NCBI GenBank assembly: GCA_026418625.1
Contig: JAOABA010000055.1
Location: 1 to 64,000 of the forward strand
Source of the DNA: Candidatus Kapaibacterium sp.
Lineage (GTDB): Bacteria > Bacteroidota > Ignavibacteria > Kapaibacteriales > UBA2268
Length of the DNA: 64,000 nucleotides
Reading direction: 5' to 3'
Part shown: positions 3,034-62,536 of the stretch, piece after piece
Layout of the letters: each line of letters starts with the position of its first letter
How positions within the stretch are numbered: the first letter of the stretch is position 1
Notes under the pieces: generated by a model
Seen by the model: the letters and a program-made list of their open reading frames with translations, nothing else
What the model was told of the DNA's origin: nothing
Database searches by the model: none
Program-made: the position numbers and the translations under genes

Positions 3034-3300
3034 CTAAGGAAAAACTTTATAAATGTCCTTTCTGTGAACAATTCTTGCAAGTTCGATAGTGTCATTCTCA
3101 AAGAAAAAGCCAATTCTATAATCTCCTAATTTTATTCTATATGCGGCTTTAAATCCAGATAGCTTTTTAACATTAACCAGGTCAGATAGTTTTTTTGCTA
3201 GTTCAATTTCTTCAATTATTCTAATAACCTGCATTTTAATTTGGGTATCTGATATTTTATCCAAATCTTTATTAAACTTAGCAAGGAAGACTACTTCCAT
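3034..3300 (-). CDS. RelE/ParE-family toxin of a toxin-antitoxin pair
   Basis: Length 88 aa, the usual size of the RelE/ParE superfamily. It shows the family pattern: an N-terminal strand (VVFLAKFNKDLDKI), a helical hairpin, KKLSGFKAAYRIKLGDYRIGFFF and a C-terminal IVHRKDIYK. Members either cleave mRNA on the ribosome (RelE) or poison gyrase (ParE); GDYRIGFF with VHRKDIYK is typical of RelE-like mRNA interferases. The gene lies one base downstream of the antitoxin gene in the same operon, in the usual antitoxin-first order. Confidence 0.85.
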   Translation of the reverse strand: MEVVFLAKFNKDLDKISDTQIKMQVIRIIEEIELAKKLSDLVNVKKLSGFKAAYRIKLGDYRIGFFFENDTIELARIVHRKDIYKVFP

Positions 3301-3301
3301 A

Positions 3302-3499
3302 TTATGTCCTAAGTTTTTTCATTATTGTTTCTCTGCTGACTTTTTTTGTTCTATCTGCTTCTTTCATCAATTCACCAAAATATAAATCTTCTTTTTCCTC
3401 AGATGATAAAACTTTGATTTTTATTTTCATTTTTGAAAATAAATCAGAAATCAATTGAAATTCCTTATCATTTTTTGGGCTTACAAGTATTGTATTCAT
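3302..3499 (-). CDS. Antitoxin partner of the RelE/ParE-type toxin
   Basis: Length 65 aa, placed directly upstream of the toxin with a one-base gap. The sequence (KVLSSEEKEDLYFGELMKEA, then RTKKVSRETIMKKL) matches the small helical antitoxins that accompany RelE-like toxins: an N-terminal region of variable fold, then a helix that wraps the toxin. No full DNA-binding domain is evident, although such antitoxins often autoregulate the operon. The assignment rests mainly on context and general resemblance. Confidence 0.7.
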   Translation of the reverse strand: MNTILVSPKNDKEFQLISDLFSKMKIKIKVLSSEEKEDLYFGELMKEADRTKKVSRETIMKKLRT

Positions 3500-3565
3500 T
3501 ATTATTCCCTAAATAATCTTTAAGTTCCTAATTACTGACGGTAAATTGAAACATAAATTATTTAT

Positions 3566-3667
3566 TTATTTTATTACTACAAAACTCTTTGTTACTCTAT
3601 TTCCCTTAATGAAAATGTGCAATAGTATTCCTACTGGAGATTCTACAGTTGAAATATTTATTAAACC
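3566..3667 (-). pseudogene. Remnant of a T9SS C-terminal sorting domain
   Basis: No start codon is present. The leftward frame reads INISTVESPVGILLHIF followed by KGNRVTKSFVVIK and a stop at 3566-3568. This is the pattern of the last ~30 residues of T9SS type-A sorting domains (…L..G.Y.…..G.....KFVVIK). An in-frame TAG at 3668-3670 cuts the frame immediately upstream, and no body of a secreted protein remains. I infer the decayed 3' end of a secreted-protein gene. The stretch 3500-3946 otherwise holds only this fragment and one copy of a repeat. Confidence 0.6.
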
Positions 3668-3712
3668 CTAAATTGAATTTTATGAATAATCACCTAATAA
3701 GTTAAATTTTAT

Positions 3713-3886
3713 ATATATTTTCTGATTTCATAAAGTATATTTTCGTTTTGGATTATATGTTCGCAATAATTTCGTTGACAGAGGGGCGTAGTGGATGAAT
3801 TTCGAATAGTATTAATACGTTTTGCAGAAAATGTTTTAAACTGTCATATAATTTCAGATTATGGATGCGTTGTAGAGGCAGGTTCA
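3713..3886. repeat. Diverged ~175-bp direct repeat, copy 1
   Basis: The block runs from TTTTCTGATTTCATAAAG through to GGTTCA. It matches 4612-4787 in the same orientation, including a 27-nt identical core at 3798-3824 (4699-4725 in copy 2). The two copies flank the DUF2283/DUF4258 pair. There are no terminal inverted repeats or transposase, so it is not an obvious insertion sequence. It may be a decayed duplicated gene end, because a 58-codon GTG frame (3791-3967) runs through copy 1 and is broken in copy 2. Confidence 0.7.
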
Positions 3887-49049: not shown

Positions 49050-49457
49050 ATGGATGCATTCAGTGAATTAGCTGTTAATAATTATTTATTATCAATAGCG
49101 AATAATCAGAGCGAAATACAGTCATTTGCAAATGATCTTGAAACAGATTTTATTCATGCTTTCGAGACAAGATTTATAATGGATCCAGCTTCGTTAGCAA
49201 GTTTGCAAAGTTGGCCACAAGCAACTAAAGATGTATTGATACAAACAGCAAAAACTACTGCTTTATTGCATGGTTTATATAACACAAATCCTGCAATAAT
49301 GACCACAATTGGTTTTGAAGCTCCAACTGGGAAAATGTCTGCTTCTGCGGCTGCAGGATCAGTTGAAGTAACTGGTTCTGTAACTACCAAAACTGACATA
49401 GCAACTGGACATACCGTTGTTGAAGCAAAAGTCGAAGCTAAATGGACTATTTGTTGA
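49050..49457 (+). CDS. Small protein of the duplicated peptide/protease module, copy 1
   Basis: Length 135 aa from the ATG at 49050, chosen for GGAGAAGAAT before it. No signal peptide. It shares with the protein at 60655 the blocks YLxSIAN, QSFANDL/QAFANDM, RFIMxP, SWPxA, LHG, GFE, TKTD..TG.T..EA and a terminal Ile-Cys. The only cysteine is the last residue. The protein is unknown to me. A conserved C-terminal tail with a last-residue Cys beside a protease gene suggests a processed or anchored product, which is inference. A hairpin separates it from the protease gene. Confidence 0.65.
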   Translation: MDAFSELAVNNYLLSIANNQSEIQSFANDLETDFIHAFETRFIMDPASLASLQSWPQATKDVLIQTAKTTALLHGLYNTNPAIMTTIGFEAPTGKMSASAAAGSVEVTGSVTTKTDIATGHTVVEAKVEAKWTIC

Positions 49458-49474
49458 TAATTGCTTTTTCTTGG

Positions 49475-49505
49475 GGAACTGTCTCAATACAATTGAGATA
49501 GTTCC
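49475..49505 (+). terminator. Attenuator-like hairpin inside the module, copy 1
   Basis: GGAACTGTCTCAA (49475-49487) pairs with TTGAGATAGTTCC (49493-49505), 13 pairs with one G-U, followed by TTTGATT. It lies between the small-protein and protease genes, as does a hairpin of different sequence in copy 2, so the position is conserved. Confidence 0.65.
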
Positions 49506-49533
49506 TTTGATTATGAAAGGAGATTAGAATCAA

Positions 49534-50799
49534 ATGATAAAATTATTTTTATATACTTCTATTGCAATTTTAATATTTATTAGTTGTAGTACTCAAAAAG
49601 TAACTGTAACTAAATCCCAAAAAAGTTTAATTTCTGATACATTGAATTATTCAACTTATTGGACTGCAATGCGTTGTGGTTTTCCGGAATTAGCCAATAA
49701 ATACACAACTGAACCTGATAAATTGGAATTTGCAAAAGGATTGATTAATATATTAGAAAATAATTTTTCAATTTCCGAAACAATTTTTAAGAAAATAATA
49801 GAATCAACCAGAAACGACACTGTAAGAGACAATTCAAAAATTTTATTAGAGCAAGTTTTTATTTATCAGTCCAAATGGAAAGATTATTTCGATTTTTTCA
49901 GAAATAATAATAAAGTAGATTCAACAGAAATCAGGAGGCTTCTTTATCCGGCTTTTGTCAATAATTCTGAGAGAATTAATTATTCTAAATTAATTGACAC
50001 AATTCCAATTTGTGTAAAAAATGGATTAATTTTTATTCCTGTCAATGTAAATGGTCGAGATTACAATTTTCTCTTTGATTCAGGCTCACAATTAACTTTA
50101 TTATCAACCGATGTTAGTTCGGAAACAGGAATCAATTCATTATTTAAGCATCCAGCTTCCCTAATTGCTTCCACTGGGAAATTATCTGATGTAGAAACCG
50201 GTATTATTAAAAGTTTTAAAGTTGGAAATTACGAATCCAATAACAAACCATGCTTGATTTCAGAATCAGCAAATCTTAAATTCAAATTTTGGTTTTATAC
50301 TTTTTTAAGTTTCGATGGAGTTATTGGTTGGGATGTTATTAAAAATTTAGATATTTTGATAGATTGTAAAAATAAAAAGATGATTATAAGTAAACCACAG
50401 TTAAGAAATGTAACAGAAAAGAATTTATTTTGGTTAAACCACCCAATTGTAAGATTAAAAAGCACAAGTGGTATTGAATTACTATTTTTCTTTGATTCCG
50501 GTGCTCAGAACAGCAAATTTTATGATTTTCTTTTAGTAAAACTGAAACCTGAAGATTTAAAAGATGACAAAGAACTTATATATGGGATTGGCGGTTCATA
50601 TACAAGGAATTTGAAGAAAATTCCAAATATATCATTCTTGTTGAAATCCAATAAACTTGATTTCGAGAATTTGGTATCTGGTTATGAGCCAGAAGATCAG
50701 TTTATCAAGTTGGATGGTGTTTTAGGGAATGATATTGGCTTAGAAGATAAAATTCATATTGATGCTATAAATGGAGTTTTTGAAATAATTAAGGATTGA
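49534..50799 (+). CDS. Two-lobed retropepsin-like aspartic protease, lipoprotein, copy 1
   Basis: Length 421 aa. Lipoprotein signal (AILIFISCST, Cys18). Residues ~35-140 are helical, TPR-like. Two aspartic-protease lobes follow, each with a catalytic triplet and a later LDGxxG block: FLFDSGSQLTLLS (Asp182) with FDGVIGWDVIKNLDI, and FFFDSGAQNSKF (Asp321) with LDGVLGNDIGL. It should act at the outer or periplasmic membrane face. The downstream partner position to the small protein and the matching pair at 60655-62379 imply that the two work together. Confidence 0.8.
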   Translation: MIKLFLYTSIAILIFISCSTQKVTVTKSQKSLISDTLNYSTYWTAMRCGFPELANKYTTEPDKLEFAKGLINILENNFSISETIFKKIIESTRNDTVRDNSKILLEQVFIYQSKWKDYFDFFRNNNKVDSTEIRRLLYPAFVNNSERINYSKLIDTIPICVKNGLIFIPVNVNGRDYNFLFDSGSQLTLLSTDVSSETGINSLFKHPASLIASTGKLSDVETGIIKSFKVGNYESNNKPCLISESANLKFKFWFYTFLSFDGVIGWDVIKNLDILIDCKNKKMIISKPQLRNVTEKNLFWLNHPIVRLKSTSGIELLFFFDSGAQNSKFYDFLLVKLKPEDLKDDKELIYGIGGSYTRNLKKIPNISFLLKSNKLDFENLVSGYEPEDQFIKLDGVLGNDIGLEDKIHIDAINGVFEIIKD

Positions 50800-56397: not shown

Positions 56398-56649
56398 TTA
56401 AAGTAAATTGTTTAGTAAAGAAATAATTTCTTCCAAATCATCTTTTGTCAAAGTAATATAAGGTCGAGCTGGAATTCTAATAGTGGGTTTCAGCTCTTTC
56501 TTTTTTGTGAGAGCCATTGCTTTCCAATTGACCAATCCTGTATTGTAATACTTTGCCCAGAAGAACTTTCGCATTTTGGATGTAATTGGTATATATAGCG
56601 TTATATTTCCACCATATTGATGAATAGCAGCATAAGTCAACTTTAATCA
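56398..56649 (-). pseudogene. Fragment of a Mu-like phage virion morphogenesis (gpG-type) protein
   Basis: The leftward frame reads TYAAIHQYGGNITLYIPITS … KPTIRIPARPYITLTKDDLE and ends at 56398. IHQ.GG and IPARP(F/Y) with a following D-helix are the C-terminal signature of the phage virion morphogenesis / tail-completion family. The N-terminal half is missing: an in-frame stop lies just upstream, and the sequence there switches to a Mor-like fragment on the other strand. It begins with TTG only by chance of the break. A prophage relic. Confidence 0.6.
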
Positions 56650-56850
56650 AACAGACAATGGCGTCTATTCTAGTAAATCATTGATTGACCGTTATTTAAA
56701 GTAAAACATAAAAGAAATACCAATTAATAAAATTGCAAGTGAATTGTGTATTAATGAAAAAGTTGTGTTGAGAATCATGAAGAAAATTTCTATACAAATA
56801 AATATTTTTGCTTATGAAAAATTATTTTTCAAAAACTTTGTCACCTTTTT
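56645..56850 (+). pseudogene. Decayed Mor-like activator fragment
   Basis: The rightward frame reads KSLIDRYLK, a TAA stop, then NIKEIPINKIASELCINEKV and VLRIMKKISIQIN. This aligns with the end of the intact protein at 41308 (RSLIERYIKENIKEIP, IARELGMNERAVANIMRKK); one Glu codon has become TAA. No ribosome site and no N-terminal half. It lies back-to-back with the gpG fragment, so a rearrangement joined two pieces of a Mu-like element here. Confidence 0.7.
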
Positions 56851-57086
56851 CTTGAAAAAGTACATATATATGTTAGAGTTGTTACAATTTTATAAAAAAT
56901 ATGGAGGTAAGGTAAGATGTCTGAAATTTAATATTAAAAAGCCGAAGAAAACTGAAGTGGTTTCGACTCCGGCTTTTTATTTTTTTCTGAAAGGAAACCA
57001 CAGTTCCCATTCAATATTTTTCGTATGGTAGAAGTATATAACTTTCTACCAAGCACAGCAATGCAAAAAAACGAGAAAATGTTGAA
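56839..57086 (+). repeat. Intergenic repeat, copy 1 (248 bp)
   Basis: Almost identical to 60353-60600 over 248 bp, with five or so substitutions, and to 62392-62536 over its first ~110 bp. Order: TGTCACCTTTTTCTTGAAAA, an AT-rich promoter-like stretch, a strong Shine-Dalgarno GGAGG (56903-56907), mini-ORF Met-Ser-Glu-Ile-stop (56917-56931) and a terminator. It precedes the secreted Cys-rich gene at 57146. No transposase or terminal inverted repeats. Confidence 0.9.
56936..56978 (+). terminator. Terminator inside intergenic repeat copy 1
   Basis: AAAAAGCCG (56936-56944) pairs with CGGCTTTTT (56970-56978), with an inner GAAAAC/GGTTTC helix, followed by ATTTTTTT. It begins five bases after the mini-ORF stop. 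Confidence 0.75.
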
Positions 57087-57145
57087 AAATAATGGCTTGA
57101 ATTTATTAACTAACAGTTTTTTAAAAAATAAAGGAAATTTTTAAA

Positions 57146-57903: not shown

Positions 57904-60234
57904 ATGTTTAAAATTGCTATTGTTTTATTGATAATTTTTTGTACTTACATAGGTAATGCCTTACCTGATACTTTTAACAAAATTGATTTCTATAGAATCA
58001 ATTCTGATTTCAATGGTTCTGTTTATAATGGTAGTATTTTGTTAGTATATGGTAATGGTGGAGTGATATTAAAATCATCAGATATTGGGAATAATTGGGA
58101 ACAAATAAATTTAAACGATAATCTAAATATCATTAATATGATTTATACCGATAATCAGTTTGTTGGATTAAGCGACAGAAATGAATTTATTTTTTCTAAA
58201 GATAACGGCATATCATGGGAAAGTAAATCAACAAATCCAGGTTTTCAGATTTATAAAATGATATTTTATAATGATAATTACTACTGTATGGGCTCTGACA
58301 AGATTTTAGTTTATGATAAAAAATATCAAAAAATCGAAGAATATCAGATTAAAGTTGATACAAACTATTATAGTTTTGCATTATTTAAGAATAAAATTTT
58401 ATATACTGCAAAAAAAGGGTTAATTAAATCAATAGACCTAAATAATAAACAGGAATCCTTTATTGATTTAAAAAATTATGGAATATGTGTTGATTGCAGT
58501 TTACCGATTGAATTGCAAGCTGATAATCAATTTGCTTATTTCCGTCATAATTTAATATTGTATGGATATGATGGTAATTCGATAAATCATATTCATAGTC
58601 CTAATGCTAAAGGAATTTATTGCTTAAAAAATAATGAAATCTATCAAATATACAATGTCAATTTTTCAGATTATAAATTGGATTCATTGTATTTTGTAAA
58701 AGTTAATAAACAAACTAAGGGTAGTATATCAATTAAATCAAAAATAAATGACAGATATATATCCGGCTTAGTATTTACGGACGTTAAATTTATTAACGAT
58801 AAAACAATTGTTGCAGTAGGAAAAGATAAATTGATATATATGTCTTATAATTCTGGTGCAGATTGGGAACTTAAATCTCATTTAAATAATCTGAATTATA
58901 TAACTCGTTTTGATGCTCAAAGTTCGACACAAATTCAACCATATTTAAAATTCAACAAATCAAATGACGGTGGAGTAACTTGGCTATCACAAAAGAACTA
59001 TAACAAATATTTTTCAAATGCATTATTTGGGTATTTATATAGTTATGGTATTGGATACTTTTTAAATAAAAACAATGGTTTTTATTTTTTAAGTAGTTCC
59101 ACTGAAAACTTCAATATTGCTTATACAAATGATAATTGCGAGAATGTTAGTCTTCAACAAAATGAATCAATGGGTTACGATAAATCTAAAGATTTAAGAT
59201 GTATTTCTTATAAGGATACAGCTTTAATTATGCTACCTGGTATTTTCAAGTCAAATTGCTATTCAATTTTATTTCGATTAGGAAATGAATTTAATGAAAT
59301 TAACAGAACAGTTTTAGATTCTACTTGGTTATTGTTTATTGATAAATTGGAGAATAATTCAATAATAGCAATTTCAACGAATTATAAATACCCGTATAAA
59401 AAGGGTTCTCGGACATACTTTGATAGTATATTTTCAAGTGTCATTATATCAAAGGATGGAGGTTATACCTGGGAAAAAGAATTCGATTTTAATATGAACG
59501 GATTTGAAAGTAAAATACGCCACTATACAATTTCGAGAATCAATAATGATTTATTCTTCCATTATGTTGAATTGAATGAGGATAGTGTTATGAAGGCGAG
59601 TATATATAGATATAAAATTTCAGAAAAAACCTTAGAAAAAATCTTTTCTGATGATTATTATGACCCACCAATGCCAGGTGTAGTAAAAATAGGTGAATAT
59701 TATTATTTTATTACAATGAGGGTATTATCCAACGGCACTGAATTTAATGTTTATGAAAATAGAGATTTTAATAATAATCCGAAAAACTGGACAAAGATAT
59801 CTCCTTTTGACAGATATTCCATACAAAATATGGAATCCTTTAATGACAGTTTGTACAAGATAATAGCTTATGATTCCCTTTTCAAAAAGATGGTGGTTTG
59901 GTTTAATAAACCTGATATACAAACTGACGTTGATAATCAGATAAATAATGAATATAATTCAATTTATATATCAAATCCAATACCCAATCCTGCTAATCAA
60001 TATGTCAGATTTAAAATATATTGGGATAGTGCCTTGGAGCCATCACTATTTAGATTTGAAGCATTAAATCTAGTCGGTGCAGTCATATCAGAAAATGAAA
60101 AGTTCGATTTCCATATAATAAACAATCATTCTGGTGAATTAATTTGGTATCCTGGACAGTTAACATCAGGTATTTATTTTTTAAATGTCAAATTGGGATC
60201 ATCCAATAAATATATTAAAGTAGTTTTAAATTGA
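57904..60234 (+). CDS. BNR/Ycf48-like repeat protein with T9SS sorting domain, copy 1
   Basis: Length 776 aa from the ATG at 57904 (GAGG before it; a TTG eight codons earlier is less likely). Signal peptide (IAIVLLIIFCTYIGNA) and repeated blades with asp-box-like turns (SSDIGNNWEQI, SKDNGISWESK, SYNSGADWELK, SKDGGYTWEKE) as in Ycf48/sialidase-type propellers. The C-terminus is a T9SS type-A domain (ISNPIPNPANQYVRFKIY, SGIYFLNVKLG, YIKVVL). Exported to the surface or medium. Directly after its stop, in frame, lies another sorting-domain tail. Confidence 0.8.
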   Translation: MFKIAIVLLIIFCTYIGNALPDTFNKIDFYRINSDFNGSVYNGSILLVYGNGGVILKSSDIGNNWEQINLNDNLNIINMIYTDNQFVGLSDRNEFIFSKDNGISWESKSTNPGFQIYKMIFYNDNYYCMGSDKILVYDKKYQKIEEYQIKVDTNYYSFALFKNKILYTAKKGLIKSIDLNNKQESFIDLKNYGICVDCSLPIELQADNQFAYFRHNLILYGYDGNSINHIHSPNAKGIYCLKNNEIYQIYNVNFSDYKLDSLYFVKVNKQTKGSISIKSKINDRYISGLVFTDVKFINDKTIVAVGKDKLIYMSYNSGADWELKSHLNNLNYITRFDAQSSTQIQPYLKFNKSNDGGVTWLSQKNYNKYFSNALFGYLYSYGIGYFLNKNNGFYFLSSSTENFNIAYTNDNCENVSLQQNESMGYDKSKDLRCISYKDTALIMLPGIFKSNCYSILFRLGNEFNEINRTVLDSTWLLFIDKLENNSIIAISTNYKYPYKKGSRTYFDSIFSSVIISKDGGYTWEKEFDFNMNGFESKIRHYTISRINNDLFFHYVELNEDSVMKASIYRYKISEKTLEKIFSDDYYDPPMPGVVKIGEYYYFITMRVLSNGTEFNVYENRDFNNNPKNWTKISPFDRYSIQNMESFNDSLYKIIAYDSLFKKMVVWFNKPDIQTDVDNQINNEYNSIYISNPIPNPANQYVRFKIYWDSALEPSLFRFEALNLVGAVISENEKFDFHIINNHSGELIWYPGQLTSGIYFLNVKLGSSNKYIKVVLN

Positions 60235-60330: not shown

Positions 60331-60352
60331 ATTTTAAATATTGAAAAAAATA

Positions 60353-60600
60353 TGTCACCTTTTTCTTGAAAAAGTACATATATATGTTAGAGTTGTTACA
60401 ATTTTATAAAAAATATGGAGGTAAGATAAAATGTCTGAAATTTAATATTAAAAAGCCGAAGAAAACTGAAGTGGTTTCGACTCCGGCTTTTTATTTTTTT
60501 CTGAAAGGAAACCACAGTTCCCATTCAATATTTTTCGTATGGTAGAAGTATATAACTTTCTGCCAAGCACAGCAATGCAAAAAAACGAAAAATTGTTGAA
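60353..60600 (+). repeat. Intergenic repeat, copy 2 (248 bp)
   Basis: Full-length match to 56839-57086. The Shine-Dalgarno GGAGG, the mini-ORF Met-Ser-Glu-Ile-stop (60431-60445) and the terminator are all kept. An overlapping frame, ATG GAG GTA AGR TAA, differs only by a synonymous change (AGG/AGA). It precedes the small-protein gene at 60655. Confidence 0.9.
60450..60492 (+). terminator. Terminator inside intergenic repeat copy 2
   Basis: Same hairpin as copy 1, AAAAAGCCG with CGGCTTTTT, followed by ATTTTTTT. Confidence 0.75.
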
Positions 60601-60654
60601 TATTTGTGTCTTTAATTATTTAACTTTTTTTGTACTTAATAAAGGATTTTTAAG

Positions 60655-61053
60655 ATGTTAAACTTTAATGAAGCTAATGTTAATATTTATTTACAAAGCA
60701 TAGCTAATGATCAAAATGCTATTCAAGCATTTGCTAATGATATGTCGAATAATTTTGTGAATTGTTTCCAAGTACGGTTTATTATGACCCCAACAGATGT
60801 TAATTCATTGAATAGTTGGCCTGATGCTGTAAAGCTTCAAATTTCTTCCATGTCACAAACTGTTGCTACACTTCATGGAATATTTGGAAGTGATCCATTG
60901 TTATGGAGCATAAATGGATTCGAGAGTCAAGGTGGCATACCAGCTACTACGAATTCTGTTGAAGTGGAGGTTGAAATTAAAACCAAAACAGATACAACAA
61001 CTGGTAACACTATAATTGAAGCTAGAGCAACTGCAAAATTTGCTATTTGCTAA
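60655..61053 (+). CDS. Small protein of the duplicated peptide/protease module, copy 2
   Basis: Length 132 aa, homologue of the protein at 49050: YLQSIANDQNAIQAFANDM, RFIMTPTDV, LNSWPDAVKLQ, LHGIFGSDP, GFESQG, TKTDTTTGNTIIEARATAK and terminal Ile-Cys. No signal peptide. Apart from one cysteine near residue 36, only the final Cys is present. AAAGGATTTTTAAG precedes the ATG. Unknown function; the best-conserved part is the last ~30 residues, as expected if that end is the active, processed or anchored part. Confidence 0.65.
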   Translation: MLNFNEANVNIYLQSIANDQNAIQAFANDMSNNFVNCFQVRFIMTPTDVNSLNSWPDAVKLQISSMSQTVATLHGIFGSDPLLWSINGFESQGGIPATTNSVEVEVEIKTKTDTTTGNTIIEARATAKFAIC

Positions 61054-61059
61054 ACTAAG

Positions 61060-61094
61060 GGTAGTATTAATATTTTTTTGATATTAATACTACC
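61060..61094 (+). terminator. Attenuator-like hairpin inside the module, copy 2
   Basis: GGTAGTATTAATAT (61060-61073) and ATATTAATACTACC (61081-61094) form a perfect 14-pair stem with a seven-base T-rich loop. Different sequence but same place as the hairpin at 49475 in copy 1. Confidence 0.65.
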
Positions 61095-61116
61095 TATAAT
61101 TCCTCCGGGGGAGTTT

Positions 61117-62379
61117 ATGAAAACTTTGATATTAATATTTTTTCTTATTTTTATTATTGGTTGTTCCAATAAAAATGTTTCAATTACAAAAATAAGTAGT
61201 GATTCAAAGCAATTTGATACATTAAGTTATTCAAATTTTTGGACTGCTATGAGATGTGGTATTCCTGAAATGGCACCAAAATTTACAAATGATAAAGAAA
61301 AATTAGAGTTTGCTGATGCCTTGAGTGATATAATAAAAGGGAACTTTGCAAGTGCTGAAAGTAAATATTACGACTTGATTAATAAATCCCAAAATGATAC
61401 TATAATATATTATTCAAGAATGATTCTTGAACAAACATTGATTTATCAATCAAAATGGGAAAAATATTTTGAAGAATTTAAGAATAAAGATATCTCTGAT
61501 TCATTAGAAAAAATACGATTACTTTTTCCAGCTTTCATTGGCAATAATGAACATTTATCGTATGAACGAAATATTGATACTATTCCATTCAAATTAAAAA
61601 AAGATTTAATTTTTGTTATACTTAGAATTAATGATAAAGAAGTTGAGTTCCTTTTTGACACGGGCACTCAATTTACAACCTTGTCAGATGAACTTGCCGA
61701 TGAATTGGGATTAATCCCATTATCTATTAATAAATCAGCAATGCAATCATCCACTAACTCATATAGCGATATTAGTACAAGTATTATTAAAAAGTTAAAT
61801 TTTGGAAATATTACTTATGAAAATAAACCATGTTTTATAACAAGTAGCAGTAATTTCAAATTCAAATTTTTATTTTATACTTTTTTGAGTATGGATGGAG
61901 TATTGGGTTGGGATATGATTAAAAATTTAGATATTACAATTGATTATAAAGCAAGAAAACTGTATGTTAGAAAACCAGTACTAAACCAAAATACAAATAG
62001 AAATATGTTTTGGTTAAATCAACCTATAGTTAAGTTAAAATCAAGTGCTGGAATTGATTTATTATTCAATTTTGATTCAGGTGCTCAGGAAAGTGCATTT
62101 TATGATTTTCTTTTAGTTAAAATAAAGCCTACTGATTTGAAAGATGATAGTGAAAGTATTTATGGATTTGGTGGTTCGGTAAAAAAAGATATACAAATAA
62201 TTCCTGAAATTTCATTTCGATTAGGTGAGCATCAACTTAATTTTAAAGAAATTAAATCCAGCTTTGAGATAGATGGACACTTTATTAAATTAGATGGTGT
62301 TTTGGGTAACGATATTGGATTAAAATCAGGTAAGTTACATTTAGATGCTAAAAATGGTATTTTTGAGATTTTGGAATAA
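61117..62379 (+). CDS. Two-lobed retropepsin-like aspartic protease, lipoprotein, copy 2
   Basis: Length 420 aa from the ATG at 61117, chosen because GGGGGAG precedes it and the lipoprotein signal (FFLIFIIGCSNK, Cys16) then starts correctly; an ATA-rich upstream extension runs through the hairpin. Homologue of the protein at 49534: FLFDTGTQFTTLS with MDGVLGWDMIKNLDI, and FNFDSGAQESAF with LDGVLGNDIGL. Both catalytic triplets are intact. Helical N-terminal half. Membrane-attached outside the cytoplasm, while its small-protein partner has no signal, so how they meet is unclear. Confidence 0.8.
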   Translation: MKTLILIFFLIFIIGCSNKNVSITKISSDSKQFDTLSYSNFWTAMRCGIPEMAPKFTNDKEKLEFADALSDIIKGNFASAESKYYDLINKSQNDTIIYYSRMILEQTLIYQSKWEKYFEEFKNKDISDSLEKIRLLFPAFIGNNEHLSYERNIDTIPFKLKKDLIFVILRINDKEVEFLFDTGTQFTTLSDELADELGLIPLSINKSAMQSSTNSYSDISTSIIKKLNFGNITYENKPCFITSSSNFKFKFLFYTFLSMDGVLGWDMIKNLDITIDYKARKLYVRKPVLNQNTNRNMFWLNQPIVKLKSSAGIDLLFNFDSGAQESAFYDFLLVKIKPTDLKDDSESIYGFGGSVKKDIQIIPEISFRLGEHQLNFKEIKSSFEIDGHFIKLDGVLGNDIGLKSGKLHLDAKNGIFEILE

Positions 62380-62391
62380 AATTAAAAAATA

Positions 62392-62536
62392 TGTCACCTT
62401 TTTCTTGAAAAAGTACATATATATGTTAGAGTTGTTACAATTTTATAAAAAATATGGAGGTAAGGTAAGATGTCTGAAATTTAATATTAAAAAGCCGAAA
62501 ATTTATAGCTGATTTTACCACGGCTTTTTTAGTTTT
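62392..62536 (+). repeat. Intergenic repeat, copy 3 (shortened)
   Basis: Matches the first ~110 bp of copies 1 and 2, including GGAGG and the mini-ORF Met-Ser-Glu-Ile-stop. Inside the terminator the loop differs completely (AAAATTTATAGCTGATTTT instead of the shared one), while both arms of the stem are kept. The ~110-bp 3' part of the long copies is missing. It precedes the Cys-rich gene at 62680. Confidence 0.88.
62489..62529 (+). terminator. Terminator inside intergenic repeat copy 3
   Basis: AAAAAGCCG (62489-62497) and CGGCTTTTT (62521-62529), followed by TAGTTTTTTT. The stem is conserved with a replaced loop. Confidence 0.75.

Follow-up and report, generated by a model that had tools for sequence, protein, structure and literature searches.

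Bacteroides species possess lipoproteins of the C10 protease family whose genes are co-transcribed with those of small proteins resembling staphostatins, and a part of the latter are lipoproteins as well (PMC3462683). Another protein of interest is BfUbb, which carries a C-terminal Cys and forms a covalent complex with a target enzyme under non-reducing conditions (PMC3352274). A C-terminal Cys is also acted upon by TglH, and some of the RiPPs made by MNIO enzymes carry lipoprotein signals (PMC12636315). The locus considered here recalls each of these systems in part; it encodes a small, usually Cys-ended protein together with an envelope hydrolase.

The window, i.e., the whole 64,000-nt stretch of DNA analyzed (genome G000 in our comparison), harbors two divergent copies of a module consisting of a small gene, an intergenic hairpin and a gene for a two-lobed aspartic-protease lipoprotein, as a first-pass annotation had proposed. 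In copy 1, the small gene (49050–49457, +) encodes a protein of 135 aa ending in ...EAKWTIC, the hairpin (49473–49507, +) features a 16-bp stem, and the protease gene (49534–50799, +; 421 aa) carries the triplets FDSGS and FDSGA. Copy 2 comprises a small gene (60655–61053, +; 132 aa, ending in ...ATAKFAIC), a hairpin also with a 16-bp stem (61059–61095, +) and a protease gene (61117–62379, +; 420 aa) with the triplets FDTGT and FDSGA; it is immediately preceded by a direct repeat (60338–60625, +) and immediately followed by a partial one (62384–62499, +; 98% identical over 116 nt). Both small proteins terminate in Ile-Cys and lack a signal peptide, their frames being extendable by at most 4 codons in copy 2 and 11 codons in copy 1. 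As annotated, the proteases are predicted lipoproteins with two triplets: a lipobox is present in both, along with two D[S/T]G triplets, and each half contains a DG[V/I][L/I]G-type motif. The copies are only 45% (small proteins) and 53% (proteases) identical, which points to a duplication long ago or to independent acquisition of the two. Codon comparison of the copies returned dN/dS of ~0.33–0.37 for both genes, a rough estimate given dS >1.2.

The small protein defines a family not described before, with ten members found, all in one class; no above-chance match was obtained in Pfam, NCBIfam, PHROGs or PDB sequences. Whole-genome profile searches of collections comprising one genome per species, mostly draft assemblies, were positive in 7 of 123 genomes of the order, in 9 of 391 genomes sampled from the class and in 6 of 395 genomes sampled from the phylum, every one of the latter belonging to the same class. 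The ten members in total represent a small and partly related sample (G020 is related to G048, and copy 1 to copy 2). The N-terminal part of the protein, the head (roughly residues 1–86), is recognizable in all pairs of members (shuffle Z 3–43) and features a constant RF, whereas the tail is hardly alignable beyond close relatives (Z mostly 0–5). The conservation of the last ~30 residues, noticed on first reading, thus holds between the window copies (last 32 residues, ~59% identical) but not family-wide, where the tail diverges except for the Cys. This terminal Cys is present in seven members; the others end in -SCTF (G153), -ITLW (G028) and -FELK (G131). The tails are nonetheless amphipathic, with a beta-type alternation (p 0.001–0.09 per tail). 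In nine of the ten members, nothing precedes the head and a signal peptide is lacking; the tenth, from G017, possesses an N-terminal lipoprotein signal (MQYNKIKKAILLLSTAGMTVAGTSC), and this predicted form indicates that the family can be exported to the location of the enzyme. An AlphaFold2 model built from a two-sequence alignment is of low confidence (mean pLDDT 65.6); it depicts five helices in residues 6–77 (pLDDT ~60–83) followed by a three-stranded tail, again of low confidence. When this model was compared with the PDB, Foldseek returned nothing informative (best E 1.2) and the VIA-align 2 Z was at most 4, which says nothing on the novelty of the fold.

Eight of the ten small-protein genes are situated directly upstream of, and co-directional with, a gene for an envelope hydrolase, and these hydrolases are of two unrelated kinds. 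The partner is an aspartic protease in the window genome (two copies) and in G017, but the expectation that it is always a protease did not hold, since an unrelated alpha/beta hydrolase takes this place in five genomes (G009, G020, G048, G153 and G028, the last with two in tandem). There is no enzyme gene beside the small-protein gene in G024 and G131. The heads are alike across both partner types (e.g., copy 1 vs. G153, Z 15) and the tails are not; a correlation between tail and enzyme type was looked for among the members and was not found.

In the proteases, ~150 mostly helical residues come after the lipobox, and the two lobes that follow contain one D[S/T]G triplet apiece; the protease of G017 and many solo relatives have DFG or DLG as their second triplet. 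The first half matches PF13650 (E ~1e-12; 48 and 47.4 bits vs. the cut-off of 24.3), and the second lobe is unrecognized by Pfam. By sequence and triplets, the window proteases are assigned to the retropepsin-like family (PF13650/PF13975), with predicted activity. Structure prediction did not give a usable model of the protease (pLDDT 37.9). A PADLOC match, PDC-M08B, was dismissed as evidence of a defense function, since it covers the retropepsin domain only. The alpha/beta hydrolases, either lipoproteins or signal-bearing proteins, make up one homologous family with 22–28% identity across genera; they are nearest to Peptidase_S9/S33 (PF00326, and PF12146, Hydrolase_4), with weak matches exceeding the PF00326 cut-off, and their Ser, Asp, His triad is invariant (S175, D253, H285). 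In the order, all close members of this family are paired with the small protein and two distant ones (G046, G047) are unpaired. A profile scan of the flanks of full-length protease relatives in the same order revealed the small protein at 3 of 11 and its absence at 8. Homologues standing mostly alone, which the first-pass annotation had named as a refutation for either gene, are the rule for the protease but not for the small gene, which is enzyme-adjacent in eight of ten cases. This distribution suggests that the small protein is usually accompanied by an enzyme, and that the enzyme lineages were drawn from wider envelope families. The closest full-length protease relative (G052, L062 1492–3620) overlaps by a few bases the gene of a different, 288-residue exported protein, a possible alternative client of the protease.

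The small gene and its partner behave as a real unit, as initially supposed: the pair recurs in other genera and families without another common neighbor, except for a sigma-factor gene at three loci. This gene, of the ECF type, is adjacent and co-oriented: it precedes the module in G153, follows it in G028 and also stands at a remnant in G000. Apart from matches between copies inside a single genome and between the near relatives G020 and G048, the all-against-all comparison of neighbors revealed only generic proteins with T9SS tails, BNR proteins and one gene of G000 common with G020/G048 as common between loci. The BNR/Ycf48-like secreted proteins near the module in G000 (57904–60231) and G009 (L021 1–2235) are related (E 2e-7). 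The Cys-rich secreted proteins beside the module or BNR genes in the same two genomes were considered as a common family and rejected, for there was no detectable homology. An 80-residue ORF at 56401–56640 (−; MTYAAIHQYGG...) has close copies at L005 13183–13845 and L009 7006–7245.

The folding of the intergenic stretch was compared with that of dinucleotide shuffles and expressed as z. A strong hairpin separates the genes in five of nine loci (copy 1, z −4.5; copy 2, −4.2; G009, −6.5; G020, −3.3; G048, −4.3). The annotated constancy of hairpin placement thus extends from the window copies to G009, G020 and G048; it does not extend to three paired loci where the folding is weak (G017, −0.8; G153, 0.4; G028, 0.6). 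The corresponding stretch in G024, which has no partner enzyme, gave −2.1. A chance origin of the window hairpins was ruled out by their z values and by the rarity of equally strong windows in a folding scan of the 64 kb, namely 7 of 4262 at 76 nt (two of them being the module hairpins) and 1 of 4263 at 60 nt. The scan tool's terminator pattern does not fit the hairpin of copy 1, and neither window hairpin is followed by a long T run, so the word "terminator" overstates them; the G009 hairpin, followed by TTTTT, is terminator-like. A search of the hairpins against Rfam returned no element. A natural reading is that the hairpin would bring about partial termination or stabilize the mRNA of the first gene. 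The stem ends roughly 20–35 nt before the enzyme start, leaving no room for a promoter; it is therefore plausible that read-through supplies the enzyme in lower amounts.

Several features are indicative of mobility. Between G020 and G048, the module has a dS of 0.29–0.34 vs. 0.54–1.70 for five flanking genes, and its GC3 is lower, which argues that the module was exchanged horizontally between them after the species split. Both module genes are under purifying selection (dN/dS ~0.22–0.26). In G048, the module is flanked by rny on one side and by a 197-nt duplicate of the 3′ end of that gene on the other (L023 3838–4034 and 6056–6252); in G020, it is followed by a decayed rny fragment with an in-frame TGA (L022, about 1882–2141), and the whole picture looks like insertion of the module at the end of rny. 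The repeats bracketing copy 2 have a third counterpart at 56831–57111 (95–98% identical), and no further copies were found genome-wide. These repeats bracket a secreted Cys-rich/BNR gene pair as well as module copy 2, and the first gene of each has the same upstream sequence. Truncated protease remnants occur just beyond the window (C58:65014) and in G052. To the right of the window on C58, the remnant of a protease N-terminus (L005 3018–3185) has behind it the genes of an ECF sigma factor and of a protein that is probably its anti-sigma counterpart (3200–3784). In the related MAG Reactor_maxbin.046 (L009 5965–6339, L072 1498–1872), a protease gene 89% identical to that of copy 2 ends after ~112 query residues, a break corresponding in place to the remnant right of the window. 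Carriage by viruses or plasmids was rejected, as no homologue was found in viral contigs or plasmids.

Our tentative preference is to regard the pair as an exchangeable envelope module, in which an abundant small client is trimmed or matured by a less abundant hydrolase. The first gene would give rise to an abundant small protein whose conserved head of ~80 residues, predicted to be helical, would contact a common cell component, and whose variable tail, likely an amphipathic beta-strand, is usually Cys-ended. The second gene, reached in most loci only by read-through past the hairpin, would yield a scarcer hydrolase anchored in the envelope as a lipoprotein, which may have the small protein as its substrate and would, most likely, trim or mature it after its crossing of the inner membrane. 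If the reaction alone matters, the enzyme could be swapped between two unrelated hydrolase families with the head unchanged. A head that does not vary with the enzyme most likely has a role unconnected with it, be it traffic, folding or a target. The enzyme varies but is always an envelope-directed hydrolase; therefore, the loci probably have in common the hydrolysis of a substrate connected with the small protein, most simply the small protein itself. Unlikely, in our opinion, is the more specific possibility that a constant Cys-ended protein is served by interchangeable hydrolases of unrelated folds that release or expose its Cys, e.g., for a disulfide or thioester with a target. The processing of a client by the hydrolase is supported by the pairing of eight members out of ten, the swap of enzymes, the contrast between head and tail, the Cys of seven members, the recurrent hairpins and the lipoprotein signal in G017. 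Against it stand the lack of an export signal in nine small proteins with a lipoprotein as the partner, the coupling of the closest protease relative to a different exported protein while most relatives are solo, the enzyme-less members in G024 and G131, and the three loci without a strong hairpin. We infer the expression levels as well as the export and the cleavage of the small protein, and likewise the processing of a precursor; readings in terms of inhibition and immunity fit much of the same evidence.

The strongest rival to processing, in itself rather doubtful, is that the small protein specifically inhibits or guards the envelope hydrolase, comparable to the staphostatin/staphopain or Bti/Btp pairs: produced in excess from the same operon, it would block any prematurely folded enzyme. 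The proposed site of action of staphostatins is the cytoplasm, and both the excess of the first product suggested by the hairpin and the lack of a signal would suit such a cytoplasmic guard, just as the lipoprotein form in G017 resembles the exported Bti proteins; gene order and presumed excess are equally compatible with inhibition and with processing. The inhibitor would, however, have to be a single family acting on two unrelated enzyme folds, with heads that are not sorted by enzyme type, and it is difficult to reconcile with two enzyme-less members and with eight of 11 proteases doing without the small protein. No papain-like cysteine protease was encountered among the partner enzymes examined by Pfam, and the check for a staphostatin-like fold, made on the low-confidence two-sequence model, revealed a helical head and no informative fold match.

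It appears quite unlikely that the pair is a conflict module, with the small protein as a secreted antibacterial toxin (the head for traffic, the tail with the reactive Cys) and the hydrolase as an immunity or activating factor. The patchy spread (9 of 391 genomes of the class), the G020/G048 exchange, the bracketing repeats and truncated remnants, the layout of constant head and variable tail, and the precedent of BfUbb as a secreted Bacteroidota protein with a C-terminal Cys (PMC3352274) would all accord with it. Nevertheless, neither a toxin family nor a structural match (for the low-confidence model) was found, nine of the ten members lack an export signal, purifying selection operates on both genes and no plasmid or viral-contig homologue was detected. 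Even less probable is that the two genes have envelope or stress functions which are regulated together, without mutual action: the adjacent sigma genes at three loci and the occurrence of the proteases with other partners speak for it, yet the hydrolase directly follows eight of the ten small-protein genes, with one hydrolase family replaced by another, and almost nothing else is common between the loci. Least probable of all is a RiPP-like system, in which the hydrolase removes the head as a leader, and enzymes from other loci modify the terminal Cys of the tail, which would be the core. Its appeal lies in the conserved N-terminal and divergent C-terminal parts, and in the action of TglH on a C-terminal Cys along with the lipoprotein signals of some MNIO-made RiPPs (PMC12636315). 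The search for MNIO (DUF692, PF05114) was negative in all nine genomes and positive in two known control genomes, which ruled out an MNIO-type RiPP for these nine; besides, no modification enzyme was recognized near any module, and in place of a short core there is a tail with an extended amphipathic beta region. The putative leader is of no known family, as the NCBIfam RiPP leader models (Nif11, NHLP and others) had no match near any cut-off; a ChrA-related match in one of the ten members (E 0.089) is at chance level for ten proteins and was not taken as evidence.

The replacement of a partner by an unrelated enzyme represents strong natural evidence that two gene products are linked by a client common to both. 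Should the small protein be matured by the hydrolase, the module would represent an undescribed system of secreted or surface proteins of Bacteroidota, in which a reactive terminus is conserved; should it be an inhibitor instead, a single fold would inhibit two enzyme classes, which would itself be unusual.

We know of no partner hydrolase of BfUbb, which, unlike the small protein of the module, is a ubiquitin homologue with a signal peptide. The two are alike in being small Bacteroidota proteins with a C-terminal Cys and a patchy distribution, that of BfUbb being among strains of Bacteroides fragilis (PMC3352274). With the MNIO RiPPs, the module has in common the terminal Cys (as in TglA) and the existence of a form with a lipoprotein signal (as in DAG-RiPPs) (PMC12636315); it differs from TglA and ChrA/DybA in the lack of MNIO in nine genomes and of the CPxCGxG motif, as well as in a much larger, folded-looking precursor. 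The Btp/Bfp and Bti/Bfi pairs of Bacteroides, also Bacteroidota, likewise consist of two co-directional genes, one for a hydrolase that is a lipoprotein and one for a small protein that can be a lipoprotein too (PMC3462683). In the module, the enzyme is an aspartic protease or an alpha/beta hydrolase instead of a C10 cysteine protease, and the small proteins, in contrast to the exported Bti, are mostly signal-less and end in Cys. The partners in five genomes resemble the envelope alpha/beta hydrolases of Peptidase_S9/S33 (PF00326, PF12146) in exceeding the PF00326 cut-off and keeping the triad, although the matches are weak and the substrate class could be peptide or ester. Finally, the module protease resembles the retropepsin-like aspartic proteases (PF13650, Asp_protease_2; PF13975) in its first-half match and D[S/T]G triplet, and is distinguished from them by a second lobe outside the reach of Pfam, a ~150-residue helical N-terminal region and the union of two lobes in one lipoprotein chain.
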